Source: Ignavibacteriae bacterium HGW-Ignavibacteriae-4
GTDB lineage: Bacteria > Bacteroidota > Ignavibacteria > Kapaibacteriales > UBA2268
NCBI GenBank assembly: GCA_002839765.1
Contig: PGYR01000011.1
Span: 1-64,000 of the forward strand
Direction: 5' to 3'
DNA: 64,000 bases
Below, in pieces: positions 36,611 to 64,000 of the stretch (its first letter is position 1; each line of letters starts with the position of its first letter). Both the position numbers and the translations under genes were made by a program. The notes under the pieces were generated by a model. That model searched no databases and was not told the DNA's origin. It was given only the letters and a program-made list of their open reading frames with translations.

Positions 36611-36877
36611 TTAATGAACTATTTCTTCTTCAATATTAAAGGCTATTAATTCACCTTTTTCTACTTGCTCCAATGACTCAGTTAGTCGCTTTCTGTTAGC
36701 TTTTGAGTAGAGTAGGTGTTCTGTTTCCTTGAGTGAATTATATTCCTTTATAGACATAATTACAACTCCATCGTCATCTTTGTTTCTTGGTATCACGATT
36801 ATCTCCGATGAGTTACTCACTGCGTCGAAGTACTTTTTCATCGATTTTCTAAGTATGGATATGGTTATTGCTTTCAT
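36611..36877 (-). CDS. yefM: YefM-type antitoxin (Phd/YefM family)
   Basis: An 88-residue antitoxin: N-terminal DNA-binding part [20 protein letters not shown], then [20 protein letters not shown] and [11 protein letters not shown], and a C-terminal toxin-binding helix ending IEEEIVH. All usual Phd/YefM features are present. It precedes the toxin gene, the expected order, and should autorepress the pair together with YoeB. Confidence 0.93.
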
Positions 36878-37445: not shown

Positions 37446-38216
37446 CTATTTTGATTTATTCAAATCATATAGCTTCAAATACTTCAGATAAGTTGCATAA
37501 GCTGAATTGAAAGCTATTACGAAGCCGTAGAATCCATCTAAGAAACCAAGTCGTATGAAATAATCCCTGACGAATTTGAACCATGAGTTGAAGAGGATTG
37601 TAACGACACTTGTAGTCTTCCCTTTTTGGTGTAGCTCCCTAGCAGCAAGCGTAGTAAACTTTTGGATTTGGTCTATGTGTTGGCTAATACTATCGATAGA
37701 GTAATGAAGCAAATCACCATTAAGTTTGATGACTTTCGTATTCTCATCTAGTTGAAGCGTTTCGTGGACTCCTTCGCCTATCCATTTGCCTTTACCCTTT
37801 TCCCAAATTCTAATTTTAGTGTCTGGATACCATCCACCATGCTTTATCCATTTACCACAGAAATTAGTCATTCTACTGAATTCATAAGCATAAGTATTGG
37901 AAGAGATTTTGATATTTTTAATAGAGTCAATTAGCTCAGTAGATAGCACTTCATCTGCATCTATGGACATTATGTATTCGAAATTAGCTCGCTCTATCCC
38001 GAAGTTTTTTTGTGCAGCATAGCCAAGGAATTCCTGGTTAATGACTGTGGCACCCTTGGAATTGCATATCTCAACAGTTCGGTCTGTTGATTGGGAGTCA
38101 ACAACGATTATCTCATCGGCAACACCAATCAGCGAATCTAAACATCTGCCGATTTTATCTTCCTCGTTATAAGTAATAACAACGGCAGAGAGTTTTATCG
38201 AATTGCTACTTTCCAA
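37446..38216 (-). CDS. Glycosyltransferase family 2 (WaaE/KdtX type)
   Basis: A 256-residue GT-A-fold transferase: LSAVVITYNEEDKIGRCLDS at the N-terminus, VVDSQSTDRTVEIC (nucleotide-sugar-binding Asp), and the metal-binding YIMSIDADEVLS. The following WYPDTKIRIWEKGKGKW and HETLQL motifs are typical of the WaaE/KdtX lipopolysaccharide-core beta-glycosyltransferases. The C-terminal part holds an amphipathic or membrane-associating segment (FLDGFYGFVIAFNSAYATYL). Last gene of the gltX operon. A role in lipopolysaccharide core synthesis is inferred from family. Confidence 0.9.
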   Translation of the reverse strand: MESSNSIKLSAVVITYNEEDKIGRCLDSLIGVADEIIVVDSQSTDRTVEICNSKGATVINQEFLGYAAQKNFGIERANFEYIMSIDADEVLSTELIDSIKNIKISSNTYAYEFSRMTNFCGKWIKHGGWYPDTKIRIWEKGKGKWIGEGVHETLQLDENTKVIKLNGDLLHYSIDSISQHIDQIQKFTTLAARELHQKGKTTSVVTILFNSWFKFVRDYFIRLGFLDGFYGFVIAFNSAYATYLKYLKLYDLNKSK

Positions 38217-56322: not shown

Positions 56323-56380
56323 ACTTTCATAAACCTACGAGGACTTTAGTCCTATTAATATTGGACTGCTCCTTAGTTCT

Positions 56381-56418
56381 CCTGGACTCTTCGGATGCTT
56401 CGCATCCTCTGAGTGACG
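56381..56418 (+). repeat. Family A hairpin repeat, copy 3
   Basis: CCTGGACTCTTC, then a hairpin with arms GGATGC and GCATCC around TTC (56393-56407), then TCTGAGTGACG. The flanks match the copy at 44464-44503 while the stem is different in sequence but still perfectly paired. Confidence 0.65.
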
Positions 56419-61743: not shown

Positions 61744-61855
61744 CGGAAAAGGGATTAGAATGTAAGAGGGGGGGATATTAATAAAATTAAGTACCTATAA
61801 GTAGGCATTTTTCAAAATAGGAGGATGAAAGTTTTAGAAGAAAGTAAAATTGTAT

Positions 61856-61863
61856 TATATTTG
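61856..61863 (+). promoter_or_regulatory. Candidate -7 element of the VWA-OmpA gene
   Basis: TATATTTG on the plus strand, 33 bases before the start of the VWA-OmpA gene; ATTG lies only a few bases upstream of it, too close for a -33 box. Confidence 0.35.
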
Positions 61864-61895
61864 ACATATAGATATTTTTCAATTCTGAGGACAAT

Positions 61896-63650
61896 ATGAA
61901 AAAAATAATTATTACTTTTCTGATAACAACTATGTTAAGTTTAACATACTCGTGCTCAACCCAAAAGCCGGCAATTAATAGCTTTTCGATAGATAGAGAA
62001 TCTATTGAAATAGGTCAAGAAGTACAGATAAGCTATATTTCAACAAATTCAGAAAGTAGCTTACTGACTTTTACCAACAAAAATGGTATAATAGACACTA
62101 TAAATAAAGTACAAAATATGTATAATACATATTCTTATAAACCCGAATCAAGTGGCGAATTTACACTACAAGTTAAAAACGGCGATGAAGTAACAACATC
62201 TTATAAAAAAGTAGTAGTGAATGTACCAAAGCCACCAAAAGTAGAGCCACCAACTACGATAATTGCTGATGAGTCAAAGGATTCATCACAATATTTGAAA
62301 GGAATAATTCCAATTGATTTGGCGAAGAATAGAGATATATTCTTCGAAATTTTCAGTTATGATAGAACTGGCTTCCCAGATTCAATTAAAGTTTTTATAA
62401 CTGTCAAAGATAGTTATGGGAACTTTATATCTAACATGGCAACACCATATGCAAGTGATGAAATAGAAAAAAAATACTTCAAAGGTATAGTAGAAGTAAT
62501 TAACAATCAAAGATATGAGATAGAGAGTTTCGATGTTGTAGAGCATCATGATGAATATTCAAAACCCTACACATTTTCTTTAGTACTTGATCATAGCGGT
62601 TCAATGCAATATTATAATTCAATTGAAGAATTACAAAAAGCAGCCATAAATTTTATAAAACAAAAAAAGAATATGGATAGGATAGGTATAATTAAATTTG
62701 ATAATCGATTATTGGAGGAAGTTAAGGTTAATATAAGTCGAAGTGAAATTACTAATGATTATATTCCTGATTTATTAACTCGATTCAATGGAGGAACTTC
62801 GTTATATGCGGCGGCTGATATGGCAATTTATCAACTTATTCCCTTTGAAAATAGAATTGTTATTCTTTTTACTGACGGTCTTGATAATATGTCTCTACAA
62901 ACTAGCTTTGAGAAAGACTTCAGGTTAGCATACTCGCCATTAGATTTGGTATATAATGCAAGAAAATCTGACACCAAGATATTCACAATTGGTTACGGTC
63001 AAGCTGATTTCAACATTTTATCAAAAATATCATACCTGACTGATGGTAAAACATTCAAAGCAAATAATGGGAATGAGATAAATGAAATAATAAATTCCTT
63101 ACCAAGGCTATTTAACAATTATTATGAGATAACATATAAACCAAAGTCTATAAAAGGATGGCGTGATATTGAAATAAATACAGTTGACAATTCATTGAAG
63201 GATTTTGTTTTGAATGGTGGTACTCATATTGGAGAAGACTTTGATTTTGGTGAAGAACCGGATATTATATTAAAAGTTGCAAATTTTGATTACAATAAAT
63301 CTTCTATAAATGAAGATGACAATTTTATTAAATCGGTTTTAGCTTTTTATAAAAAATTCCCAGATATAGTCATAGAGTTACATGGGCATTCGGATAGTAA
63401 AGGAAATCCGGACTATAATAAGAAATTATCTTTGAAAAGAGCTAAGAGTATCGAGAAAATTTTAGTAAAAAAAGGAATTCCACAAGAAAAAATAATTTCT
63501 TTAGGTCATGGCTCTGAATATTTAATCTATAACCCAGATACTTTAGAGTGGCAAAGAAAAGAAAACAGACGAGTCGAAGCTAGGTTTATAAGAAGTGGCG
63601 AATTCAAAAAAGGCTATTTTAATTTATCAGACCCTAATTTTAATGGTTAG
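61896..63650 (+). CDS. VWA-domain OmpA-like lipoprotein
   Basis: A 584-residue lipoprotein (TMLSLTYSC lipobox). Residues about 25-110 look like an Ig-like domain. The von Willebrand A domain is at about 225-410: FSLVLDHSGSMQYYNSIEEL with the MIDAS DxSGS near 232, RFNGGTSLYAAADMAIYQL (MIDAS Thr), and IVILFTDGLDNMS. The C-terminal 110 residues are an OmpA domain (KVANFDYNKSSINEDD, IELHGHSDSKGNPDYNKKLS, RRVEARF), which binds peptidoglycan. So the protein is tied to both outer membrane and cell wall and displays a metal-dependent adhesion domain. A likely terminator lies 38 bases downstream. Confidence 0.9.
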   Translation: MKKIIITFLITTMLSLTYSCSTQKPAINSFSIDRESIEIGQEVQISYISTNSESSLLTFTNKNGIIDTINKVQNMYNTYSYKPESSGEFTLQVKNGDEVTTSYKKVVVNVPKPPKVEPPTTIIADESKDSSQYLKGIIPIDLAKNRDIFFEIFSYDRTGFPDSIKVFITVKDSYGNFISNMATPYASDEIEKKYFKGIVEVINNQRYEIESFDVVEHHDEYSKPYTFSLVLDHSGSMQYYNSIEELQKAAINFIKQKKNMDRIGIIKFDNRLLEEVKVNISRSEITNDYIPDLLTRFNGGTSLYAAADMAIYQLIPFENRIVILFTDGLDNMSLQTSFEKDFRLAYSPLDLVYNARKSDTKIFTIGYGQADFNILSKISYLTDGKTFKANNGNEINEIINSLPRLFNNYYEITYKPKSIKGWRDIEINTVDNSLKDFVLNGGTHIGEDFDFGEEPDIILKVANFDYNKSSINEDDNFIKSVLAFYKKFPDIVIELHGHSDSKGNPDYNKKLSLKRAKSIEKILVKKGIPQEKIISLGHGSEYLIYNPDTLEWQRKENRRVEARFIRSGEFKKGYFNLSDPNFNG

Positions 63651-63676
63651 GTTTGCGTAAATATGATTGTTCTTAT

Positions 63677-63709
63677 CTACAGATATCAAGCCCAGCTGGG
63701 GCTTTTTTT
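63677..63709 (+). terminator. Terminator of the VWA-OmpA gene, and family D repeat copy 1
   Basis: CTACAGATAT (63677-63686), then arms AAGCCC and GGGCTT around five bases, followed by seven T. It looks like a working intrinsic terminator and is at the same time the first unit of a four-unit repeat array in this gene-poor stretch. Confidence 0.75.
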
Positions 63710-63728
63710 GTTTGTGTATCACCTTTAG

Positions 63729-63758
63729 CTACAGATATTAAGCCACTATGTGGCTAAG
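63729..63758 (+). repeat. Family D repeat, copy 2
   Basis: CTACAGATAT then a hairpin with arms AGCCAC and GTGGCT around TAT. Same ten-base lead as copy 1 but a different stem. Confidence 0.65.
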
Positions 63759-63771
63759 CCAAATCCAAAAT

Positions 63772-63799
63772 GCCCTAGCGGGGCGATATATCTGTAGCT
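63772..63799 (-). repeat. Family D repeat, copy 3 (inverted)
   Basis: On the minus strand GAGCTACAGATAT leads into arms GCCC and GGGC around five bases. It is the inverted orientation of copies 1 and 2. Confidence 0.6.
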
Positions 63800-63818
63800 C
63801 TTTAGTTTAACAGAAAAC

Positions 63819-63853
63819 CAATTTGCCTCGTAGAGGTAATATACGCATAGCTC
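63819..63853 (-). repeat. Family D repeat, copy 4 (degenerate, inverted)
   Basis: On the minus strand GAGCTATGCGTATAT is a decayed form of GAGCTACAGATATAT, followed by arms CCTC and GAGG around three bases. No coding signal is seen in the surrounding 300-base gap. Confidence 0.45.
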
Positions 63854-63902
63854 ATCAGTCAAATGTAAAACCTCCACTATTGCAAATTTGAAGATTAATA
63901 AC

Positions 63903-63910
63903 TAAATTTG
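63903..63910 (+). promoter_or_regulatory. Candidate -7 element before the gene at the right edge
   Basis: TAAATTTG fits TAnnTTTG, about 56 bases before the last start codon. TTTG at 63887-63890 is only 12 bases upstream. Confidence 0.3.
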
Positions 63911-63966
63911 CTTTGTCTACGTATTTATGAAGTAGAGATTATATAACTTTTTCGGGGGAAGAAGAT

Positions 63967-64000
63967 ATGAAAATATTAGACAAAATAGGAACCATAGAAA
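63967..64000 (+). CDS. Start of a gene cut by the window edge
   Basis: ATG after GGGGGAAGAAG, a good ribosome site, opens MKILDKIGTIE and runs off the edge. Too short to identify. Confidence 0.5.
   Translation, partial: MKILDKIGTIE

Follow-up and report, generated by a model that had tools for sequence, protein, structure and literature searches.

Background

The closest described systems are REP sequences, their doublets (REPINs or BIMEs) and the associated TnpAREP/RAYT transposases, together called REPtrons. Their units are short hairpins bearing a fixed tag that stays unpaired; they are scattered through intergenic DNA, often form inverted doublets, and bracket a Y1 transposase gene. A canonical REP has a stem of at least 7 bp with GT[AG]G lying 0-2 nt 5' of it. 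In the account of Di Nocera et al. 2013 (PMC3733652), REPs are placed mostly between tandem and convergent genes. The same account describes TIRtrons, which are tyrosine transposase genes with inverted-repeat flanks in species without GTAG repeats. Insertion sequences of the IS200/IS605 type, such as IS608 and ISDra2, encode homologous HUH-Y1 transposases and are recognized by one subterminal hairpin per end and by near-identical multi-copy elements. For one group of Y1 enzymes, TnpAY1 subclass 1.2, Table 1 of Quentin et al. 2018 (PMC6006769) gives "no" under REP; the automatic REP search described there required a stem of 7-20 nt with GTAG or GTGG at a distance of 0-2 nt. Among the matches listed in our literature search, which took in no bioRxiv preprints and lacked many subscription papers and so is weak evidence of absence, no report of REPs for subclass 1.2 was recognized by title and abstract.

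Here we describe a hairpin array from a member of the Bacteroidota that probably represents a single copy of a non-coding, REP/REPIN-like repeat belonging with an IS200-like Y1 (HUH) transposase of subclass 1.2. The copy would be an old one, and the assembly would lack its cognate gene.

Layout of the hairpin array

The stretch of DNA analyzed (the window) runs from the start of contig C71 (65,435 bases) to base 64,000, in a genome assembly of 3.36 Mb and 110 contigs. The array lies behind a plus-strand gene encoding a 584 aa VWA-OmpA protein (61896-63650), which is outside the element. A first plus-strand lead, CTACAGATAT, occupies 63677-63686 and precedes hairpin 1 (63688-63704, plus strand; AAGCCC-AGCTG-GGGCTT), which is terminator-like, with a T run next to it. 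A 24 nt plus-strand linker (63705-63728) leads to the second lead (63729-63738, plus strand) and to hairpin 2 (63741-63755, plus strand), whose stem pairs as AGCCAC-TAT-GTGGCT. A central spacer of 16 nt, assigned to neither strand (63756-63771), is followed by the minus-strand half: hairpin 3 (63772-63784; GCCC-CGCTA-GGGC in the minus-strand reading), the third lead (63788-63797), a linker of 27 nt (63798-63824) and hairpin 4 (63825-63837; GCCTC-GTA-GAGGT, with G-T as its outermost pair). The inverted leads are 59 nt apart, and the entire array could also form one long hairpin (fold z scores of -4.25 as DNA and -4.78 as RNA). No Rfam model matched window positions 63400-64000 at E values up to 1.

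The sequence-only reading of this DNA had described three CTACAGATAT leads, two forward and one inverted, each running into a hairpin; its coordinates and stems were correct, and all three leads are exact matches. It had also counted four units, the last of them decayed. The three units of lead plus hairpin stand, whereas the supposed fourth is rather the outer hairpin of a composite. Hairpin 4 need not be decayed, because the complete elements of another genome (G055, below) likewise have outer hairpins without a CTAC lead. The array is better read as one composite element (63688-63837), preceded by an additional lead at 63677, than as four equal units. The order of the composite is hairpin 1, linker, lead, hairpin 2, spacer, hairpin 3, inverted lead, linker and hairpin 4. 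Outer hairpins recur in the genus: a strict perfect hairpin was centered 24-40 nt before the lead in 11 of 49 units, with a mode of 32 nt, compared to 150 of 9900 random positions.

Y1 transposase genes and their flanking repeats

The sequence-only reading made no connection between the repeats and Y1 transposase genes, and one was found here, both in a sister species (G042) and at a Y1 gene of the window's own genome. That genome has two Y1 (PF01797) genes. One of them, P0001 on contig C25, is flanked on either side by a sister repeat with lead CTACTAATAT, arranged as an inverted doublet. By sequence search, P0001 matches Y1_Tnp and also the solved ISHp608 and ISDra2-type transposases. The CTACTAATAT lead occurs 60 times in this genome (41 for its control), and a strict perfect hairpin was present at 6 of 30 places inspected. 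The second gene, P0002 (L037:4043-4598), lies at the end of contig C107 and has no CTAC lead adjoining it; CCTCCCTTGAGGGAGG follows, near the contig end. Just past the window (C71:65278-65342; L038:5279-5343), and also in the genus genome G041 (L254), a CTACAGATAT lead and an inverted CTACTAATAT lead together form a hybrid doublet. Units of the CTACAGATAT or CTACTAATAT type are often followed by a different hairpin repeat, CCTGGACTCTTCGG..CTCTGAGTGACG (window 56361-56417; L005, L010 and L012).

No Y1 gene in the window's assembly is bracketed by CTACAGATAT, and the CTACAGATAT copies of this genome therefore look like orphans. G042 has a Y1 gene (C13:37122-37565) that is 55% identical to P0001. 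Five matches to a covariance model of the CTACAGATAT repeat (described below) bracket it, at 36836 (plus) and 36999 (minus) in front and at 37612 (plus), 37692 (minus) and 37745 (minus) behind. The stems GCCAC/GTGGC and GCCCC/GGGGC are common to these units and the window array. It is likely, judging from this bracketing, that the genus has the cognate enzyme of the window repeat, in G042, and that the enzyme is missing from the window's assembly. At E ≤ 1e-10, G041 had one P0001 match, of 36% identity and with stop codons, and the remaining genus genome, G043, had none.

Across the family, 21 of 54 genomes gave 41 matches that encode relatives of P0001, and named genomes gave 173 such stretches; two plasmid records also contain one. 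We analyzed 110 Y1 loci, 30 from family genomes and 80 from named genomes. Within 100 bp of the Y1 genes, short hairpins occurred at 10.6/kb, about 30 times the density in shuffled sequence (0.34/kb). The density falls steeply on either side of the gene, to 0.59/kb at 1-3 kb (0.34-0.54/kb in shuffles; 1.37/kb in the intergenic DNA at that distance), and the leads are mirrored about the gene. Two or more hairpins lay within 300 bp at 96 of the 110 loci, and adjacent hairpins were most commonly spaced 50-52 nt apart. Where 300 bp was present on each side, hairpins occupied both sides at 63 of 99 loci, compared to 26 of 782 control placements. Hairpins were also present at loci named as Acidobacteria, Ignavibacteria, Melioribacteraceae, Saccharibacteria, SAR324 and Chloracidobacterium, mostly metagenome bins whose host names may be in error. 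The Pyrinomonadaceae locus (L142), cut at a contig start, had none.

The lead itself is less uniform across these loci. An exact CTACnnATAT was found within 600 bp at just 18 of the 110 (32 matches; 0.18/kb, compared to 0.04/kb further out), and the leads at other loci take looser forms. Lead similarity tracks protein similarity (Mantel r = 0.45 over 101 loci, reached in 0 of 1000 permutations), a correlation that may partly reflect shared flanking DNA. Counting the exact lead decamer against its control in eight genomes had a mixed outcome. The sole clear enrichment was in G055 (29 vs. 8), with weak enrichment in G054 (35 vs. 21) and G056 (11 vs. 6). CTACAAATAT was not clearly enriched in the genomes where it flanks a Y1 gene (38 vs. 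41 in G057 and 30 vs. 21 in G058), and it stood as high or higher against its control where it is not the flanking lead (29 vs. 15 in G042 and 26 vs. 13 in G054). CTACCGATAT was likewise above control in G060 (9 vs. 2), where it is not the flanking lead. The expectation that each flanking decamer is enriched in its own genome was thus clearly borne out in G055 alone and failed for CTACAAATAT.

G055 contains eight complete four-hairpin copies (L310-L317) that are dispersed, gene-free and symmetric, with leads 60-62 nt apart, close to the 59 nt of the window array. At eleven further places with the lead, four have single or decayed-looking units (L321, L323, L325 and L326) and seven lack such a hairpin. 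In several of the copies, the four-hairpin element is enclosed by CCTGTCAGGGTTT..AAACCAAGGGTGTACGAAACCTT on one side and its mirror on the other, which make up a larger inverted repeat.

These arrays might instead be ordinary IS200/IS605-type ends, the dispersed copies being solo ends left after deletion of insertion sequences. In favor of this, both Y1 proteins of the window's genome pass the NCBIfam transpos_IS200 cut-off of 55 bits (76.7 for P0001 and 70.6 for P0002) and fall below the cut-off of 80 for REP_Tyr_transpos (22.3 and 40.1, respectively), and the median distance between the innermost hairpin, where there is one, and the two gene ends is 33 and 31 nt. However, the many hairpins per side with their regular pitch, the complete doublets on both sides of P0001 and the gene-free symmetric copies of G055 all argue against solo ends. 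Moreover, the two Y1 proteins of the window's genome are just 39% identical over 133 residues, rather than the products of a near-identical multi-copy element. We regard this explanation as unlikely.

A dispersed repeat family in the genus

The association with a REP/REPIN-like repeat is based as well on the behavior of the CTACAGATAT units themselves. A ten-mer without enrichment between genes elsewhere had been named beforehand as the result that would speak against a repeat family. The ten-mer occurs 33 times in the window's genome, compared to 9 for the same letters reversed, so this condition did not refute the claim. Within the window alone, enrichment was mild when up to one mismatch was allowed (13 vs. 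7.2 expected; 13 was reached in 2 of 100 shuffles). A perfect hairpin of at least 5 bp followed within 0-5 nt of 12 of the 33 ten-mers, compared to 182 of 9800 random positions (1.9%); among the other occurrences, the stem is imperfect or no hairpin accompanies a ten-mer located elsewhere. Nine of the 12 stems are 5-6 bp and three are 8 bp long.

A covariance model built from 15 units of the window's genome identified 18 matches there at E ≤ 0.01 (including the 15 training rows), along with 21 in G042, 8 in G043 and 7 in G041, so that 36 matches lie outside the window's genome and all four genus genomes have copies. In the rest of the family, 13 of 50 genomes had matches at this threshold, just two of these matches being below 1e-3. 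Strong copies are nearly confined to the window's genus.

We obtained 55 regex matches in the genus loci that were fetched and retained 49 for alignment (47 distinct rows, four genomes). The matches set aside were three in-gene matches without a proper hairpin (L241:6738, L243:395 and L246:5749), two likely scaffold duplicates (L254:3058 and L255:1925) and one with its stem out of register (L244:3036). The sequence-only reading had proposed a fixed lead with a variable stem that stays paired. Across the 49 units this was borne out, with the stems mostly paired: 89% of stem cells are paired and the covariation score reaches 0.30, whereas shuffles give 76% and 0.10; neither value was reached in 500 shuffles. 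The 15 units of the window's genome gave a similar result (about 89% paired and a covariation score above all 500 shuffles). In contrast to pairing and score, the number of pairs with two-sided change was unremarkable (reached in 158 of 500 shuffles), as was that of additional pair types (446 of 500). Three pairs account for the two-sided changes, most of them at one inner pair (A-U 20, C-G 19, U-A 6) and at the outermost (A-U 25, U-A 9, C-G 1). Since the copies are also related, there are few independent covariation events. Conservation within the units is highest in the lead, which is not part of the hairpin.

As the sequence-only reading had supposed, the family is placed between genes. The genes on either side are tandem for 23 of the 55 matches, convergent for 21 and divergent for 4; a further 6 are within open reading frames and 1 is at an edge. 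Three of the four divergent matches are at the Y1 gene, and three of the six within open reading frames are not real units. Copies on contigs C107, C65 and C36 are common to the sister species at the same place, which shows their age and does not support recent movement. An empty site sought through L261 was not found; this locus (G000:C14, about 70500-88000) sits in a variable region resembling gene cassettes, with many repeats of 40-100 nt every 0.3-4 kb or so. Similar cassette-like repeats are present in G042 (C109 and C7), G043 (C420) and G041 (C59). An integron integrase model had matches in all four genomes, none above its cut-off, and control genomes matched it too. G041 lacks about 3.5 kb of the window's genome, comprising the VWA-OmpA gene, the array and two further genes (window 61753-64000, continuing to C71:65277). 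It has one unit directly 3' of a hydratase gene (L254), which does not indicate what moved. A second unit at that locus adjoins a run of N and was set aside as a likely scaffold duplicate.

The first unit and transcription termination

Hairpin 1 has the pattern of an intrinsic terminator: a G+C-rich stem that begins 38 nt beyond the end of the VWA-OmpA stop codon and is followed at once by a T run. One such site was found, compared to 0.4 expected from shuffles. The homologous array of G042, which matches at 87% over 77 nt, is found 2.6 kb downstream of the VWA-OmpA orthologue and follows another gene. Its leads have changed (for example, to CTATAGATAT), but the stem and T run are kept as AAGCCCC-GCT-GGGGCTTTTTTTG. 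A T-rich tail, defined as at least five T among the 8 bases that come next, was present in 2 of the 12 perfect-hairpin units. It is therefore plausible that this one unit was co-opted as the terminator of the VWA-OmpA gene, and a general terminator role for the repeats is not indicated. The sequence-only reading had suggested that repeats can be co-opted as terminators, and this is retained for unit 1 only.

This unit bears on another explanation, in which the repeats are RNA-level elements (terminators or mRNA-stabilizing hairpins) that spread by duplication and recombination, with Y1 genes merely inserting among them. Such a role would suit the terminator pattern kept in G042 and the predominance of tandem and convergent placement (23 and 21 of 55). 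It fits poorly with the rarity of T-rich tails, with a conserved lead outside the hairpin, and with a hairpin density that declines steeply in both directions from the Y1 gene, about which the leads are mirrored; we consider it quite improbable. Chance or purely local duplication, which might be invoked for the window array from the direct repeat formed by two of its three leads (52 nt apart, 77% alike over 31 nt), has a negligible probability and is already refuted by the independent copies in all four genus genomes and by the frequency of hairpins at the ten-mers.

Discussion

The fixed lead, the variable but paired stems, the dispersed copies, the four-hairpin plan with its regular pitch and the bracketing of Y1 genes are properties of the sequences themselves, and they suggest that a Y1 enzyme moves or copies such repeats. 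In single-stranded DNA, for example the lagging-strand template, each unit could fold into a short hairpin. We infer that the Y1 enzyme would bind and cleave these units and bring about their movement. If it recognizes the hairpin by shape, the stem would be free to change as long as it remains paired; if it recognizes the unpaired CTACnnATAT lead by sequence, the lead would be held fixed. The movable doublet would then consist of two opposed units, each with an outer hairpin. In the window array, unit 1 was probably taken over by the VWA-OmpA gene as its terminator.

More broadly, we would give even chances to a further REP superfamily, in which subclass 1.2 Y1 enzymes inhabit and spread CTACnnATAT-led four-hairpin elements with a pitch of 50-52 nt and check stem shape and lead sequence separately, lead and enzyme diverging together across the Bacteroidota and a few other phyla. 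If this is right, a class of Y1 transposases described without a REP partner would gain one, and short palindromes scattered between Bacteroidota genes would be explained. There would also be many natural enzyme-repeat pairs, some with leads two letters apart, with which to study how HUH-Y1 enzymes recognize sequence separately from structure.

The Y1 enzymes analyzed here fit TnpAY1 subclass 1.2 in length, motifs, few divergent copies and taxa, an assignment made by motifs and not by a tree. As described by Quentin et al. (PMC6006769), members of this subclass are near 148 aa long, carry DH[IV]H, WQ and Y...Q..HH, and occur as few divergent copies per genome in Bacteroidetes. Y...Q..HH was found in 101 of our 110 proteins and all three motifs (with HxH and WQ) in 95. 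The difference is that the genes analyzed here lie within hairpin arrays. Most of the repeats described here would fail the GTAG/GTGG and stem-length search reported in that work.

Compared to IS200/IS605 elements, the homologous HUH-Y1 transposase and the small hairpins near the gene ends are shared. Mirrored leads on both sides, many hairpins per side and gene-free dispersed doublets set the present repeats apart, and we found neither a single subterminal hairpin per end nor near-identical multi-copy elements. TIRtrons, by their description in PMC3733652, are similar in combining tyrosine transposase genes with inverted-repeat flanks in species without GTAG repeats, and some TIRtron inverted repeats are described as doubly palindromic or dispersed as dimers or clusters.

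In relation to REPs, the tag differs: CTACnnATAT stands 5' of the stem here, in place of GT[AG]G at its 5' foot, and GTAG appears on the 3' side only. The last base of CTACAGATAT is 1-2 nt from the stem, and the stems are mostly 5-6 bp, shorter than the canonical 7 bp. The four-hairpin plan with its 50-52 nt pitch is also unlike REPs and REPINs, and the enzyme scores below the cut-off that marks TnpAREP/RAYT proteins in NCBIfam. Shared with REPtrons are the short hairpins and their constant, unpaired tag, dispersal between mostly tandem and convergent genes, inverted doublets, and a Y1 gene bracketed by the repeat, in the sister species but not in the window's own assembly.
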